Assembly: GCA_018242525.1 (NCBI GenBank)
Contig: JAFEBS010000015.1
Location: 27,330-91,329, forward strand
Origin: Planctomycetota bacterium
GTDB lineage: Bacteria > Planctomycetota > Planctomycetia > Planctomycetales > Planctomycetaceae
Length of the DNA: 64,000 bases
Reading direction: 5' to 3'
Made by a program: the position numbers and the translations under genes. Below, in pieces: positions 35,840 to 46,367 of the stretch (within the stretch, counting starts at the first letter, position 1; every line of letters begins with the position of its first letter). A model generated the notes under the pieces. The model saw only the letters and a program-made list of their open reading frames with translations. It did not search any database and had not been told where the DNA came from.

Positions 35840-36509
35840 CATCGATCCTTCCGCCTGTCGCGGTGCAGGGTAGCGGGGACGAAGGGCTTTGCATGCAGCC
35901 CTACTGCAAAACAGCGGTCATCCGAAAGAAGTCACCAGCTACTGATCGACTTAGACGGTCCCGTTTGTTGACTCTACACCGGCCTCCCCGTCCTGACAGG
36001 GTTCAGATGTTGCCAACGGAGATCATTTTGAGGTTCCGGGGTGACTGGGTCAACTTTGACGGCAGGGTGAATTCCTGGCAGGGGCAAACATTGATGCGGG
36101 CTCTGCAATCGGTTCAATCCGCAGAATCGGAGCAACTGCACTTCGTTCCAGGCAACTTCAGCGGCTTTGTCCGCCAAATGGGGTCTGACCCCCTCCCAAT
36201 GTGGTTCCTATTCAAATCAGGTACCTGTGGCTGGGGTCTGACCCCATTTTGTTGGGCACAGCCAGGTTCCGCGACTTTTTCAGGTTTGAATGGCAGATTC
36301 AGGTGTCTGGTTCGTTGCCGATTTGACGCATCGTCAACATGACGTAGGTTGGATGCGTAGAACCATCGAAGTCGCAGTGCGGTGTGGACACCGACTGCCA
36401 CGAATGAATGTGGGCCCTTCAGGACCAGCCAGAAGGCATCGCACAAATTGGGTGAATCCCATCCTTGTCACGATCGCAGTACTGTCCGGACCTGGAAGAG
36501 AAGAGCGAA
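35840..36509. other. 670-base intergenic region
   Basis: Holds the promoter side of the divergent BMC-T and HD/PAS/GGDEF genes and a pair of GGGGTCTGACCCC palindromes listed separately. An open frame crosses 35863-36342 on the plus strand, but its composition is not protein-like and it runs through the repeats, so I do not call it a gene. Confidence 0.5.
36176..36251. repeat. REPIN-like inverted pair of GGGGTCTGACCCC palindromes
   Basis: The 13-base near-palindrome GGGGTCTGACCCC occurs twice, at 36180-36192 and 36233-36245. The left copy is preceded by CAAAT and the right copy followed by ATTTTG, so the two units face each other as an inverted pair about 40 bases apart. This is the layout of REPIN-type elements mobilised by RAYT transposases. 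It does not match the repeats around the transposase remnant at 51.7-52.3 kb. Confidence 0.6.
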
Positions 36510-38672
36510 ATGAGTGTCGTAGCGGAATTTCCGATCAGCGGAGTCACCCCGGCTCCCCCATGGCGACCGAGCCCGGCACGTGCCGACGGAGAGGTTCGGA
36601 CTTCGCGCACGCATTCATCGGAATCGTCTCGAGCCCTGCTGAACCTGCTGAAGATTTCGCAAACCGCCGCCCGTGAAATGACGGATGCCACGGCCGATTC
36701 GGCGTTTACCGGAGTCATCAGCAAGGGTGTGCTGCGATCGCTGCTGGGAACCCTGCATCATCGGCACATGGCGACCATGCAGCACAGCCGCCGCGTGGCC
36801 CTGGTGGCGTTCGGGCTGGCAAGCCATCTGGGCTGGGACGGCAAACAACTGCGAATTCTGGAAGTGGCCGGGTTGTTGCACGATATCGGAAAAATTGGCG
36901 TCCCCGACACCGTCCTGGAAAAGCCCGGAAGACTCAGCCCTGAAGAAATTGAACTCATCACCCTGCACAACAATGTCGGGTTCGACATCTTGCAGGCATG
37001 CCGAGTCGATCGACAGGTGCAGGAAGTAATCAGCCAGACCCAGGATGTCTATTGCCCAGATCTGGAATCTGCAGAAAACCTGCGCGGTCATGAATTACAC
37101 ATGGGAGCCCGGATCCTGGCGATCGCCGACGCCTACGATTCATTGGCGACCGAACAACCTCATCGCCACGCCAAAGGACACGCGGAAATCATGGCGGTCC
37201 TGCAGGAAGGGTCAGGAACGCAATTCGACGCCAATGTCGTCAGTGCCCTGGACCGGTGGGTCAATCAAGAAGGTCTCCCACCGGCGGCATCCAACGAGAA
37301 CAGCCAGAATCCTGCACCTTCGCCGTGTCCGATCGATGATCGCGAAGCGGATACCATCGGTCAGATCTTCTCCCACCTGCATACTCTGGAACGGTTGTAT
37401 GACGGTTTTCATCTTGTGGATACCGATGGTCGAATCCTGATCTGGAATCGACGGGCAGAACTCCTGTTGGGACGTACGGCCGAACAGATGCTCGGTCAGC
37501 GCTGGTCCTGCGAGCTGCTCGGTTATCGTCACCTGGACGATCGACCGATGGTGGCCTCCGAATCTCCCATGCTGAAGGCGATCGAAACAGGTAAGACGTC
37601 ACTGCTGCCGCTGCTGGCCACACACAAGAATGGCCAGAAAATTCAAATCGAATTGCAGGCTGCCCCATTGTTTGATGAACAGGGACGTTTGCAGGGAGTC
37701 GCGGAATTCTACCGGGATCTGTCACGGAACACCGGCAAGCAGTCACACAACTTCCGTGATCTGAAACTGGCCGCCACGCGCGATGCGTTGACGAACGTCG
37801 CCAATCGTCGCGAGTTGGAAAACCAACTGGTCGCCATGATTGAGGAATTCAACGCGAAACGTCGCGAAACCTTCAGCGTTATTTTTGCCGACGCCGACCA
37901 TTTCAAGCGGGTCAACGATACATTTGGCCATGGCGTCGGAGATCAGGTCTTGATTGATCTGGCACGACTATTGACTCAGGAAACATATTCGGGAGAACTC
38001 GTCGGCCGTTACGGGGGCGAGGAATTTGTCGTCCTGTGTCCGGACACCGATCTGGAACAGGCTGTCCGTCGCGCCGAACGGCTGCGTACCACCCTGCGGA
38101 AATCCAAGATCGGTGGGCTTGATCGACTGCGCGTCACCGCTTCGTTCGGTGTGGCCCAGGCAGAACCGGGCGAAACGGTTGACAGCCTGCTGCGTCGAGC
38201 CGACAAGGCCCTGTACAAGGCGAAGGGAGAGGGACGCGATCGGACATGCTCGTATACGACTGCCGATCTCCTGAATTCCGATACCACGGTGAATTTGTCC
38301 TCGGTCATGGAGCCGTTCCTGTACCAGAGCAGGTTCACTGCTGTCGTCGCTGCGGACATGATCACGTATAAACTGGGAGGATTCGTTAACGATCACCACG
38401 CCCGATTGACAACAGTGACATCGGAACAGGTGGTCATGACCATTGGCAAAACCGGCCTGCTGGCATCGTTGAATCCGTTCATCCGGGAAACCCCCGTGGA
38501 ACTCGATCTGACCATGGACGGATTGTCGGATGCCCTCGCGAAACGAGGTGTTCCCCGCATCCAGTTCACGGTTTCCATCCGTCCGCTTCGTTCGGTCCGC
38601 AGTTCTACGGCCTTTCACGAACGGGCTGGCCTGTTGACGGCGGATCTCAAGCGGTATTTCGTGGCCGACTGA
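36510..38672 (+). CDS. HD-domain / PAS / GGDEF signalling protein
   Basis: A 720-residue protein. An HD-GYP-like domain spans about residues 85-255: H92 (QHSRR), LHDIGKIGVPD with H124-D125, and LHNNVGFDIL, but the HHE and GYP parts are missing. A PAS domain follows at about 285-410 (GFHLVDTDGRILIWNRRAE). The GGDEF domain has NDTFGHGVGDQ and the active-site GGEEF at 502-506, without an RxxD inhibitory site. The last ~150 residues resemble nothing I recognise. Expected activity is c-di-GMP synthesis. The ATG at 36510 is preferred over an upstream start (36465) because GGAAGAG lies just before it. Soluble; no membrane segment. Confidence 0.88.
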   Translation: MSVVAEFPISGVTPAPPWRPSPARADGEVRTSRTHSSESSRALLNLLKISQTAAREMTDATADSAFTGVISKGVLRSLLGTLHHRHMATMQHSRRVALVAFGLASHLGWDGKQLRILEVAGLLHDIGKIGVPDTVLEKPGRLSPEEIELITLHNNVGFDILQACRVDRQVQEVISQTQDVYCPDLESAENLRGHELHMGARILAIADAYDSLATEQPHRHAKGHAEIMAVLQEGSGTQFDANVVSALDRWVNQEGLPPAASNENSQNPAPSPCPIDDREADTIGQIFSHLHTLERLYDGFHLVDTDGRILIWNRRAELLLGRTAEQMLGQRWSCELLGYRHLDDRPMVASESPMLKAIETGKTSLLPLLATHKNGQKIQIELQAAPLFDEQGRLQGVAEFYRDLSRNTGKQSHNFRDLKLAATRDALTNVANRRELENQLVAMIEEFNAKRRETFSVIFADADHFKRVNDTFGHGVGDQVLIDLARLLTQETYSGELVGRYGGEEFVVLCPDTDLEQAVRRAERLRTTLRKSKIGGLDRLRVTASFGVAQAEPGETVDSLLRRADKALYKAKGEGRDRTCSYTTADLLNSDTTVNLSSVMEPFLYQSRFTAVVAADMITYKLGGFVNDHHARLTTVTSEQVVMTIGKTGLLASLNPFIRETPVELDLTMDGLSDALAKRGVPRIQFTVSIRPLRSVRSSTAFHERAGLLTADLKRYFVAD

Positions 38673-38818
38673 TGACGGATTGCGACGCGCCACGCTGCCC
38701 ATGTCACCGCCTGTTCCCCCGACGGCTGATTCCCGGACCATTTTCCAGCAGGAATTCGTCCGAACCTTGAACGAAACGCCGCGATGCTTCATCCTGCAGC
38801 TTCTGCAGGTGGAAAACG

Positions 38819-41485
38819 GTGACTTTGTGGGATCGAATCGTGTCGCTTGATACGCGCTATAAGATTCTGGAAAAAATCGGTTCGGGCAGCTTCGCAACCG
38901 TGTATCGGGCTCGGGATACGGAACTGGGGCGCGAAGTTGCCATCAAGCAGTTACATCAGGAATTTGTCGACGATCCCCAGCGCATGGAGCGGTTCTGGCA
39001 GGAAGCCCAGTTACTGGCTTCGCTGCAACATCCCAACATCGTCACGATTTTTGACATCGTCCGCGAACGGGGGTGGCTGGTTCTGGAACTGATGCAGGGG
39101 AGCCTGGCCGAACGACTGGCTGGTCGACAAATCGATCTGCGAGCCCTGCGGGCCACCCTGGCACATGTCTTGCGAGCCCTGAAGTATCTGCACGCGCAGG
39201 GAATTATCCACGGCGACATCAAGCCGGGCAACCTGATGATCGATTCCAGGCGACGGGTCAAGCTGGGCGATTTTGGCCTGGCCTGCCGTGTCGCCACTGT
39301 TGACGGCAGCCTGCTGAAGGGGACCACAAAATACATGGCCCCGGAAACGGTCTCGGATGATTTTGGCGAGGTCGGCCCGGCCAGCGATTTGTATTCCCTT
39401 GGTTTTTCCGCCTACGATCTGATGTGCGGTCCGAACTTCGAGGAACTCTTCCCTGGCCTGAACGCCAGGGGACGCAATCAGCAGGTCGCATGGATGATGT
39501 GGCATGCGGCTCCGGATCGGCGGTTGCCGGAAATCGGTCGCGTCCTGGAAGGCGTGCCGCCGGACCTCGCCAAGGTCGTCCAGAAGCTGACTCAGAAGGA
39601 ACAGGATCAGCGCTACAAGACTGCCGACGAAGCTCTGTCGGACCTGCAGATCGACTTGAAACTGGTGGGTGGACAATCTGGCACCGAAATGGTGACGGAC
39701 GCTCCCGCCGACGACGGCAAACGTCGCACGCTGATCGCCGCCGGTGCCCTCGGCTTTTCGGTCTTGATGAGTGTTGCGCTGTTGTTCTGGCCCGGTGGAG
39801 GTCATGGTCCAGCCCAGATACAAAAACTGCGGGGTCTGATCCATGAAGTTTTGGACGACAAAAACGAATTCATTGTCCAGGACTTGAACACGGGAGCACT
39901 GGAACCGTTCAGGGTTCCGCGCAAGCAGCGGATCTTCCTGCGGAACGAAAAGAAGAACATCCTGCTGCGAGAGTTGAAGCCGGGTGATCACGTGGAAATG
40001 GATGTCGACAAGGTTCAACGCGATCTGGTCGTCAACATGTTTGTGGATCGCCCTGTGCATACGCACGGAACGCTCAAAGAATTGATGCTGAACGAATCGC
40101 GACTGGTCCTGACGATGGAAGAGGGGAACACCCGCGATGACCTGCCGGTTCGCGTTCCTGAAAGCGCGACGCTGAAGCTGAATGGCCAGACGATCAAGCT
40201 GCGCGATCTGCAACAGGGTGACCGGTTGGAGATCACACACCTGTCCGAACCGGGCGAGAACCGGGGACAAGTCCTGAACACGTTGCTGGCACGGCGCACG
40301 GTGACCACGGTGGGTTCGGTTGCGGGCTATGATGCGGACAAGGCCATTCTTTCCGTCCAGATCGGGCAGGGAACAACCGCAGGATCGTTGAAGTTGCCCG
40401 TGGCTGCCGACTGCACTGTGACGGTCAACGGCAATTCCAAACACGAAAACCAGATCCTGACTGCGGCCGATCTCAAGCCAGGTGACCGGGTTTCCCTGCA
40501 GCATGACACCGAGATTACCGAAATCGCAGCCACGCGCAGCCTGCAATTCGATGGCGCTGTCCAGTCACTGGATGTCGATGGCGAGTTGTTGACCGTGTCG
40601 CTGTCCAACGGCGAGCGACACACGCTGATTGTCGGGCCCAAATGCGAAGTCACCCTGGCACTGGACAAGGTCAATCTGGGTGACCTGAGGCCCTATGACA
40701 ATGTGCGGGTCGCGTATTCGGAATCTGCTGAAGGAGCCTTGTCCGCCTCGACGGTCGATGCACGACGTCCCGTGAAATCGGATCGCTGGACGGTGATCCT
40801 GGGGACTCAGTCCTATACAGATCCGACGCTCTCGCCACTCAAGTCGGCCCTGCTGGATGCCCGGTTGGTACACAGTCGGTTGTTGTCTCGATACGCGGTG
40901 TCCGACCAGCGTGGCAGCCTCGTGGCCGATGGGACGTTGAAGGATTGGCAGCGTCAGTTGACGGAAGCACTCACCAGCGCCGTGCCTCAGACCCAGGTGC
41001 TGATTTATGTGACAGGACACGCGTACCAGGCGGACGACAAGACCGTCTACCTGGCGCCGAAGGATTTTCGGTTTGACAACATGGCCGCCACCGGGCTTTC
41101 CCTCGACTGGCTCGCCGAAAAATTGAACGAATGTCCTTCGCAAGACAAACTGCTTATCCTGGATGTCAGCGCTGCCGGAACAGGAAAGGACTTGAAACGT
41201 CAATTGGCGGGGAAGGCCCTGCTGGCAAACCTGAAGCCGCCCCTCAAGTCGACGACTACCATCATTTCGTGCGACGAAGGCCAGCAATCGCACGTCTGGG
41301 AGGACCAGCGACAGGGCCTGTTTGCCTGGACGTTGGCGAAAGCCATCGAAGGGGCCGCCGATACAGATCGGAACCTGCACCTGACGCCGCAGGAATTGTT
41401 TACTTACTTGAAGCAACAGGCCGCGCTGGCTCCTGATCGTGTCTTCACCGAACAAACGCCGGTCCTGGTCGAACCGTCACCGTGA
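38819..41485 (+). CDS. Ser/Thr protein kinase with membrane segment and C-terminal caspase-like pseudoenzyme domain
   Basis: An 888-residue protein. The kinase domain (about residues 14-285) has GSGSFATV, Lys 43 (VAIKQL), HGDIKPGN at 131-138 (HRD replaced by HGD, catalytic Asp 133), DFG at 151 and KYMAPE. A membrane segment lies at about 303-323. A beta-rich repeated region follows (about 330-650). The last ~230 residues look like a caspase-like (C14) domain: WTVILGTQSYTDPTLSPLK at its start, YVTGHAY with His 734, and LLILDVSAAGTG where the catalytic Cys of LDAC is Ser 784. GTG start; the next gene begins 10 bases after the stop. Confidence 0.88.
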   Translation: MTLWDRIVSLDTRYKILEKIGSGSFATVYRARDTELGREVAIKQLHQEFVDDPQRMERFWQEAQLLASLQHPNIVTIFDIVRERGWLVLELMQGSLAERLAGRQIDLRALRATLAHVLRALKYLHAQGIIHGDIKPGNLMIDSRRRVKLGDFGLACRVATVDGSLLKGTTKYMAPETVSDDFGEVGPASDLYSLGFSAYDLMCGPNFEELFPGLNARGRNQQVAWMMWHAAPDRRLPEIGRVLEGVPPDLAKVVQKLTQKEQDQRYKTADEALSDLQIDLKLVGGQSGTEMVTDAPADDGKRRTLIAAGALGFSVLMSVALLFWPGGGHGPAQIQKLRGLIHEVLDDKNEFIVQDLNTGALEPFRVPRKQRIFLRNEKKNILLRELKPGDHVEMDVDKVQRDLVVNMFVDRPVHTHGTLKELMLNESRLVLTMEEGNTRDDLPVRVPESATLKLNGQTIKLRDLQQGDRLEITHLSEPGENRGQVLNTLLARRTVTTVGSVAGYDADKAILSVQIGQGTTAGSLKLPVAADCTVTVNGNSKHENQILTAADLKPGDRVSLQHDTEITEIAATRSLQFDGAVQSLDVDGELLTVSLSNGERHTLIVGPKCEVTLALDKVNLGDLRPYDNVRVAYSESAEGALSASTVDARRPVKSDRWTVILGTQSYTDPTLSPLKSALLDARLVHSRLLSRYAVSDQRGSLVADGTLKDWQRQLTEALTSAVPQTQVLIYVTGHAYQADDKTVYLAPKDFRFDNMAATGLSLDWLAEKLNECPSQDKLLILDVSAAGTGKDLKRQLAGKALLANLKPPLKSTTTIISCDEGQQSHVWEDQRQGLFAWTLAKAIEGAADTDRNLHLTPQELFTYLKQQAALAPDRVFTEQTPVLVEPSP

Positions 41486-44373: not shown

Positions 44374-45945
44374 CTACTTGCCAACGACCTTTTGCAGAAT
44401 CATCCGGGCATCGTTGGAGGTGATTTTGCCGTCGCCGTCGACGTCGGATGATTTCTTTTCGGGCAGAAGTTTGACGGACATCTTCAGTGCAGCCAGTGCG
44501 TCGCCAGCAGTCAGCGTTTTGTCGCCATCGCTATCGCCCGGAACGCCACCGGTCTCATCGAGAATCAAGATGGCACCCGCAATGGTATCTGCATCAAGAG
44601 TCGTGCCGTCGACACGGTTGGCTGTCGACACGGTGACTTGCAGTTCGGCGCGGTCGCCAGGTTTGCCGATGATCTTGAATGGGATATGGGCGAGGATCCC
44701 TGAGTCACTGAGTGGCTTGTTACCGGCCATGCCGATGCGGGCCTGACCAGAGTCCCCGGGGTTCGCCTCGAACAGAGCGTTGCCGAGCACATTTCCACGC
44801 GCGATTTTACCCTCGGCCTGTGCAACAGCAGAGGGATAGCTGATCGTCACATTGAGGTTGGCGACACCGTCCGGGTTGAGGAGATAGACGGGTACCGTGA
44901 CGATTTCGCCCGGTTTGCCTTCGCGCTGTCCAGCCTGGATTGTGAAAGCATTCACGCTGGCAGGTTCGGGAGTCGTCGTTGGCGTTCCCGTGGCAGTCTC
45001 CTTTCCGGGTGTCGAACGACCTGTTGATGTGGTCCTCCCGGGCGTTGTGGGAACGGGTGTTGACGTTCCCGGGGTCCCTGGCGTCGAGCCAATTGGCTTG
45101 GCGGTCGTCCCGGGAAAGGCGGTCCATCTCTCTCCGCCAACTCCCCCTTCACCCACGGACCACCCTTCACCGTGAGTGCCGTCCGGTTTGATTTCGACAA
45201 TACTGACTCCCTTCCTCTGCTGGCCCTTCACCGTGGTTGTGACCCAGTCGATGTAGACCTTGTTGCCCTTGACCTTCGCCGTGCCCGTGATGTTATCGTA
45301 TCCCTTCTCGACGACTGTGTACTCGCCAGTTACTCCCGTCGGGGTGAACGTGAGTACCGCGTTCTCGTCGCCGTGAAGCCACTTGCCCGCCACATCGACT
45401 TGGGGGGCGGGCCCGGATTGTGAACTGATCTCGTCGAACGGGACGAAGTTGACCTTCAACACCTGGTTTGCTGCGAGTTGGTCCCCTCGGCCGCTGATTT
45501 GGAACGCCTGCCAGCGGTGAGGGGCCTGCAGAGCCGCCCGCAGGTTCAGCGGCTTTTCGCGGTTCGCACATAACCAGTGCTGTTCGAATGTGTACCTTTG
45601 TCCTGGGATGCCCGGATCGGGGGTACGTTTCAGGTAGATCCCCGTGCCAATGACGAAGTTTGACAGGTTGACCTCTTCAAGAGGTATCATGCCACCCTTG
45701 ACGTCCGCATAGTACGGTTCACCGACGTAAACCATCATCAGCATTCCCGCCTTTGAAAGGCTGAATTCCTGCTTCGCGGCTTGAACCGGGTTCTTTCCGT
45801 CGTAGGGCCTTGCCTTGGAGTCCACCTTCAGGTCGACCAGCTCGCCCTGGCCAACAGCGTTTTGCGAGACGACCGCCGTCAGCATGCAAGCGCAGACCAG
45901 ATTGAAAATGCCACGCGGGAGGCACCGAAATCGACCGTTAGACAT
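44374..45945 (-). CDS. Secreted cohesin-dockerin protein
   Basis: A 523-residue protein. The signal peptide covers about residues 1-33. A domain of unknown type follows (about 35-185), then a small beta-barrel-like domain (about 190-290; VAGKWLHGDENAVLTF), a Thr/Pro-rich linker (about 295-335), a cohesin-like domain (about 338-462) and a type I dockerin (about 466-523) with two calcium loops, DSDGDKTLTAGD and DVDGDGKITSND. The ATG at 45945 is chosen because AAGGG lies about 9 bases upstream and the signal follows; the open frame extends to 46323. Carrying both a cohesin and a dockerin, it could link to other copies or to the cohesin protein downstream. Confidence 0.83.
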   Translation of the reverse strand: MSNGRFRCLPRGIFNLVCACMLTAVVSQNAVGQGELVDLKVDSKARPYDGKNPVQAAKQEFSLSKAGMLMMVYVGEPYYADVKGGMIPLEEVNLSNFVIGTGIYLKRTPDPGIPGQRYTFEQHWLCANREKPLNLRAALQAPHRWQAFQISGRGDQLAANQVLKVNFVPFDEISSQSGPAPQVDVAGKWLHGDENAVLTFTPTGVTGEYTVVEKGYDNITGTAKVKGNKVYIDWVTTTVKGQQRKGVSIVEIKPDGTHGEGWSVGEGGVGGERWTAFPGTTAKPIGSTPGTPGTSTPVPTTPGRTTSTGRSTPGKETATGTPTTTPEPASVNAFTIQAGQREGKPGEIVTVPVYLLNPDGVANLNVTISYPSAVAQAEGKIARGNVLGNALFEANPGDSGQARIGMAGNKPLSDSGILAHIPFKIIGKPGDRAELQVTVSTANRVDGTTLDADTIAGAILILDETGGVPGDSDGDKTLTAGDALAALKMSVKLLPEKKSSDVDGDGKITSNDARMILQKVVGK

Positions 45946-46367
45946 GAAATAACCCTTGGAAGGTGCCACTGAGCACACCGTATAATTCGGCTTCTGATTC
46001 AAGCCGACCACATGGTTGGAATCACAGGATTCTCTGCCCTTGACACTTCGCAAATTCCGGGCCGATTGTTTGGCAGCGTTGCCTTCGAACCCAATTCGGA
46101 GGCAAAGCATTGTCGGGTGCGATCTGGTGAGTGAACTTTCAGGCGACCTTGCACCGTTTGGTCTGTGAAGGGCCTTGCCGGATGGTTCGTAGTTTTCCGG
46201 TCGGCAAGAATTCGCCAGCGAATGATTGAAACAGCAAGTGAGGTCAAAGGCAGTTCGAAACTTCTCGTGCGCCAGCCGACCACCTTGGTTACCAGCAGTC
46301 TCCCAGCGGGTTCGTCCTGGCATTGCACATGGCGGAGCATCCGATTTCAGGTGCCTGATCTGTAGAT
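45946..46367. other. 422-base intergenic region, no gene seen
   Basis: Lies between the stop of the HEAT-repeat gene and the start of the cohesin-dockerin gene, both on the minus strand. The upstream extension of the cohesin-dockerin frame through this stretch has no protein-like pattern. The promoter for the cohesin-dockerin operon should be here, but I could not pick a convincing -35/-10 pair on the minus strand. Confidence 0.5.

Follow-up and report, generated by a model that had tools for sequence, protein, structure and literature searches.

A planctomycete membrane kinase with a cysteine-less caspase fold and a genetic tie to FHA-bearing Tad genes

Introduction

Bacterial caspase homologues are usually discussed as cell-death proteases. 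A class of pseudo-orthocaspases has also been described (Klemencic et al. 2019, PMC6426788), mainly from alphaproteobacteria and cyanobacteria and often with Tyr-Ser in place of the catalytic dyad. Among inactive prokaryotic caspase homologues, Ser is the commonest substitute for Cys, and loss of the dyad in Planctomycetes is known in bulk, with 64% intact (PMC3501461). The planctomycete protein described here is like the pseudo-orthocaspases of PMC6426788 in its p20 fold, its substituted dyad, the frequency of Ser at the Cys position, the retained S1 Asp and the multiple origins of the substituted state. It differs from them in keeping the His, in being carried outside the cytoplasm on a kinase, as predicted below, and in belonging to a Tad-linked planctomycete orthologue group. 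Its caspase fold is shared with the MALT1 paracaspase and Arabidopsis metacaspase-4 (Z about 20-21), from which it differs in lacking the catalytic Cys.

On the kinase side, the PASTA kinases (PknB/Stk1/PrkC) offer a comparable arrangement, namely a cytoplasmic Hanks kinase, one span and a repeated extracytoplasmic part; in our protein, beta barrels and a pseudo-caspase take the place of the PASTA repeats. The PpkA-Fha threonine phosphorylation pathway, in which a Ser/Thr kinase and an FHA protein control type VI secretion (PMC3953482), likewise pairs a Ser/Thr kinase and FHA protein(s) with a secretion machine. Here, in contrast, the machine is of the Tad type, the motor ATPase itself carries an FHA domain, and phosphorylation is deduced from the genes. 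Class III CpaF/TadA proteins, as treated in the relevant part of PMC12019362, have the same architecture of an N-terminal FHA domain joined to a T2SSE ATPase. That part of the article states that FHA domains bind phosphothreonine peptides, places the proteins mostly in betaproteobacteria and names no kinase partner, whereas in the genomes studied here a dedicated kinase co-occurs.

Caspase domains are absent from the main text of a paper on planctomycete kinases (PMC11032199). Furthermore, a search of the open-access literature and a few subscription journals turned up no account of this kinase group, its repeated Cys loss or its association with FHA-Tad genes. New here is the co-occurrence of the kinase with an FHA-bearing TadA and/or an FHA membrane protein in a survey of 170 genomes.

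Results

The gene and its surroundings

The window analysed was a stretch of 64,000 nucleotides from a planctomycete genome (GCA_018242525.1, contig JAFEBS010000015.1, positions 27,330 to 91,329). The gene occupies 38819-41485 of the window on the + strand as an uninterrupted open reading frame of 888 codons. K43, D133, D151, His734 and Ser784, the residues singled out by the original prediction, were all found at the positions claimed, and we retain its numbering, counted from 38819. Translation probably begins at a GTG at 38840 (residue 8), giving a protein of 881 residues, because an in-frame stop lies just 5' of this conserved GTG in two close orthologues. A single scan of a contig database returned only one relative, from another Schlesneria genome (a MAG).

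A short stretch, ATGCTTCATCCTGC, lies 5' of the gene at about 38783-38800, and similar stretches precede the congeneric genes L044, L067, L068 and L069; it could be a promoter element. Directly upstream, at 36465-38672 (+), HD, PAS and GGDEF domains are joined in one protein of 735 residues, a probable cyclic-di-GMP enzyme. This protein and a PPC protein encoded downstream were considered as partners of the kinase and rejected, since neither is conserved around the orthologues. Elsewhere in the window, at 44374-46323 (-), a single chain combines a cohesin domain with a dockerin-like end.

Kinase domain and topology

Residues 14-273 (38858-39637, +) matched the Pkinase profile (Pfam PF00069) with an E value of 9e-50. 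The kinase motifs, originally judged complete, are so indeed: K43, the catalytic D133 within HGD and D151 within DFG, together with the profile match, place the domain among the Hanks-type Ser/Thr kinases, and it is predicted to be active. HGD replaces HRD, which makes the kinase a non-RD type, and this replacement is common to 62 of 63 orthologues; the motifs are intact in 59 of the 63. Three orthologues of genus g4 (L052, L053 and L077) have Arg for the beta-3 Lys (VAIR). The same three keep both His and Cys in the caspase domain, a possible case of reciprocal loss of kinase activity. The best NCBIfam match of the kinase was the PASTA kinase family (Stk1/PknB), which scored 207 bits, below the cut-off of 450, and matched the kinase part only, and no PASTA repeat was matched by Pfam in the window protein.

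The only stretch of the protein with a hydropathy above 1.6 is a single membrane segment at about residues 305-323 (39731-39787, +; maximum 2.33), just after the basic DDGKRR. Because of this basic stretch, the kinase should be cytoplasmic and the remainder outside, in agreement with the earlier placement of kinase and caspase-like domain on opposite sides of the span.

Beta-barrel stalk

AlphaFold modelling with 60 aligned sequences gave four beta barrels over residues 334-649 (pLDDT 93.6, pTM 0.75). All are encoded on the + strand: repeat 1 at about residues 334-405 (39818-40033), repeat 2 at about 413-492 (40055-40294), repeat 3 at about 495-572 (40301-40534) and repeat 4 at about 575-649 (40541-40765). 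Foldseek matched the barrels to cold-shock/S1/OB-like structures, and the barrels of some orthologues matched Pfam CusF and DUF5666, matches that bear on repeat 1; the CusF-like barrels might conceivably bind copper.

Caspase fold

The C-terminal domain, residues 655-888 (40781-41482, +), had been assigned the layout of C14 peptidases, and structure prediction had been proposed as the check. Pfam Peptidase_C14 (PF00656) matched residues 656-867 with an E value of 5e-6, above the curated cut-off. The AlphaFold model of residues 648-888 was a confident caspase fold (pLDDT 95.6, pTM 0.93). Its best VIA Z score was 21.2, to Arabidopsis metacaspase-4 (6w8s), followed by about 20 to MALT1 and caspase-6. 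The layout was thus confirmed by profile, model and structural comparison. When the caspase domain was used as a single sequence to search solved structures, nothing useful was obtained; in contrast, a profile of 54 orthologous domains did align it with them. When a phylum-wide sample was searched with the barrels and the caspase part, the only match outside the class was limited to the caspase part. Six long orthologues (L035, L033, L055, L056, L061 and L064) carry about 230 further C-terminal residues past the caspase domain, without a Pfam match and apparently helical.

Residues 658-868 also matched the NCBIfam EACC1-associated caspase (NF047832; E 1.8e-20, 73 bits, below the cut-off of 140), which would fit a caspase domain working within an EACC1-like conflict or cell-death system. 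The conserved neighbours of the orthologues are Tad genes, as described below, and most orthologues lack the catalytic residues; against these observations we find such a system scarcely credible.

Catalytic dyad, pocket and loop

In the profile alignment, LDVS of the window protein was aligned with LLDMC of MALT1, so that Ser784 (AGC; 41168-41170, +) falls at the catalytic Cys. The catalytic His position is occupied by His734 (41018-41020, +), kept in 41 of the 54 orthologous domains. The lost Cys, with Ser at 784 and His at 734, thus proved to be correctly read in the original prediction. With His734 present and Cys replaced, the domain falls outside the active C14 peptidases (orthocaspases and metacaspases); by its p20 fold and substituted dyad it is a pseudo-orthocaspase as defined in PMC6426788, and it would be a pseudo-caspase without proteolysis.

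Ser784 is not fixed among homologues, a point raised earlier: the nearest relatives have Thr, and two have Pro. Across the 54 domains, residue 784 was Ser in 17, Thr in 12, Cys in 11 and another residue in 14, among them Pro, Val, Ala, Gly, Asp, Asn and Phe. Both His and Cys are kept in only eight, and these eight may still cleave. As a control, we examined C14 proteins outside this orthologue group from genomes of the same bacterial family, of which 27/29 keep His and Cys (Fisher p 1.4e-12 against 8/54, for sequences that are not independent). Since Ser or Thr occupies position 784 in 29/54 orthologues and the His is kept in 10/10 of the window's own clade, one could suppose that Ser or Thr has replaced Cys as nucleophile, which would make the domain an unusual serine/threonine peptidase acting with His734. 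We regard this as very improbable: Pro, Val and the other residues listed with them above occupy the same position, Pro twice within the window's clade, and Ser is the substitute most often met in inactive homologues (PMC3501461).

The features around the dyad are better kept than the nucleophile. Among 241 columns ranked by conservation, position 784 was 148th and His734 44th, with D848 6th and E859 7th. The two Asp residues of the metacaspase S1 pocket identified in PMC6426788, Asp95 and Asp211 of TbMC2, correspond by alignment to Asp680 (40856-40858, +; Asp in 47/54) and Asp782 (41162-41164, +; Asp in 47/54 and Glu in 6/54), respectively. An EF-hand-like loop, DTDRNLHLTPQE, lies between two helices at residues 848-859 (41360-41395, +). 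Its core pattern occurs in 50/54, with Leu at the usual Gly position, and it is a candidate binder of a divalent ion. The Asp pair and the loop are kept in most rows that lack the dyad.

Two further observations concern caspase-like domains elsewhere. In the window's own genome (G000:C11:10600-11193, L111), a second such domain lies in a frame of 1010 residues, with Gln for His and without Cys. In genome G151, contig C8 carries nine consecutive C14 caspase matches (5186-28298), and the Tad-linked kinase of this genome has no caspase domain.

History of the caspase domain

Relatives were selected for their similarity to the window protein. When a tree was built from residues 1-650, the presence or absence of Cys required at least 8 changes. 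A second tree, with the longest branch removed, gave 7, of which well-supported branches force at least 6. A single clade of the Cys-bearing rows was rejected (p-AU 1e-55), a value used as support only, because the group is defined by the trait itself. Within the window's clade, Cys is absent in 10/10, His is kept in 10/10 and two members have Pro at 784; the loss is therefore old. An intact Cys in homologues had been named as a possible sign of recent mutation: some orthologues do have Cys, and the loss is nonetheless not a recent one.

The caspase domain is missing from nine orthologues of the set. Seven of these genes end just past the fourth barrel, one ends within it and one is cut by a contig end; on the tree, absence amounts to two changes. 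A search for caspase remnants near the short orthologues gave one marginal match (E 0.008) upstream of the gene, which we took as none. Pairwise dN/dS of the caspase domain was 0.05-0.17 in Cys-less pairs with moderate dS, which indicates purifying selection: the domain is constrained, though not as a Cys protease.

These data bear on the main rival to ligand binding, namely that the pseudo-caspase is a remnant in slow decay that has no role itself, with the kinase and barrels serving the Tad machine and the terminal domain drifting and, in some orthologues, disappearing. The repeated Cys loss, the missing domains with their two changes on the tree and the rank of position 784 (148/241) fit a remnant. 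The low dN/dS, the freedom from stops and frameshifts and the retention of the S1 Asp pair and EF-like loop in most dyad-less rows do not, and we consider a remnant unlikely. Ligand binding is our preferred guess. The earlier suggestion of a binding pseudoenzyme is accordingly plausible as regards the retained pocket, loop and low dN/dS; the domain is absent in parts of the family.

Link to FHA-Tad genes

At the window locus the neighbours are not conserved, and the kinase is not adjacent to Tad genes. A shared upstream block was found, however, at three orthologues that belong to different genera and to two families. It encodes a TadA-like T2SSE ATPase that carries an N-terminal FHA domain, two TadB/TadC-like T2SSF proteins and an FHA protein that has an FHA/YscD-like domain and a membrane segment. 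Of the machine, we followed these genes for the motor, both platform proteins and the FHA protein. At 23 loci, of which 17 are in family f1 and 6 in families f5, f7 and f12, the kinase is directly preceded by the whole block or at least by the FHA protein gene. Orthologues without the caspase domain show the adjacency as well.

Subsequently, 170 genomes of family f1 were surveyed; the kinase was found in 56, the FHA protein in 53 and FHA-TadA in 54 (E <= 1e-250). TadA-FHA was present in 53/56 kinase-positive and 1/114 kinase-negative genomes, the FHA membrane protein in 52/56 and 1/114, and one or both in 56/56 and 1/114; the genomes are drafts in which an absence may be a missed gene, and the counts ignore descent. 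TadA-FHA is present in 32 of the 33 genera with the kinase; among the other genera of the 58, one has TadA-FHA but gave no kinase match. Within the window's genus, six genomes carry both the kinase and the FHA protein and nine carry neither; the genes are scattered in this genus. Outside f1, all seven kinase-positive genomes have TadA-FHA, and the TadA-FHA positives are the same seven plus one newly sampled genome. The kinase is thus assigned to the Tad machine by linkage and by co-occurrence with FHA-TadA, with adjacency seen in orthologues and not at the window locus.

Kinase and FHA-Tad genes might also be shared clade markers without a functional tie, in that the counts are not independent of descent. 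Adjacent co-directional genes at 23 loci in four families, and presence and absence that match within one genus (6 present, 9 absent) and between genera, make this highly unlikely.

In the window's own genome, FHA-TadA and TadB are on contig C32, and TadC and the FHA protein on contig C22. The FHA domain of this TadA retains GR...SxxH...NG, the phosphothreonine-binding motif of FHA domains. That of the second, membrane-bound FHA protein looks degenerate in Schlesneria.

Discussion

The kinase is found almost exclusively with FHA-bearing components of a single machine and is therefore most simply the writer of the mark that these FHA domains read, a role that PpkA has for Fha in type VI secretion (PMC3953482). 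Its restriction, almost wholly, to genomes with one pilus or secretion motor suggests that it is probably a phosphorylation switch and not a cell-death protease. We propose, with a probability of roughly 0.58, that it is a membrane kinase forming a phosphothreonine switch for a Tad-type machine, and that the pseudo-caspase is an accessory extracytoplasmic domain that binds a ligand and does not cut it. Taking the observed genetic linkage as the starting point, we infer the kinase activity, its substrates, the ligand and the direction of regulation as follows. The four-barrel stalk would present the Cys-less caspase fold outside the cytoplasmic membrane. This fold would bind a ligand without cutting it, either a basic peptide in the retained S1 pocket or a divalent ion in the EF-like loop, or both. 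Binding would alter the state of the cytoplasmic kinase, which would phosphorylate threonines on components of the machine, a type IVc pilus or type II-IV secretion apparatus. The phosphothreonine would then be read by the FHA domains on the TadA motor and the FHA membrane protein, so that assembly or secretion is switched.

The caspase-less orthologues keep the Tad link, so the pseudo-caspase cannot be essential to such a switch everywhere. It is accessory, being absent in some members, with pocket and loop conserved in most. More tentatively, and at odds somewhat short of even, planctomycetes may have a Tad switch with a pseudo-caspase receptor, in which a protease fold, having repeatedly lost its nucleophile, has been reused as the extracytoplasmic sensor of a transmembrane kinase that signals to the FHA domain of a motor ATPase. 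The original prediction of a sensing pseudoenzyme relayed to the kinase held for the fold, the lost Cys and the span; the FHA-Tad link and the caspase-less members lay outside it.

Repeated loss of the nucleophile, set against other caspase homologues of the same bacterial family that keep it, offers a natural series for studying the role of a caspase fold in the absence of catalysis. For an uncharacterised family of planctomycete kinases, the nearly perfect association with a TadA motor that bears an FHA domain provides a concrete, testable target. Taken together, these findings suggest that the kinase-FHA control described for type VI secretion extends to a Tad-type machine.
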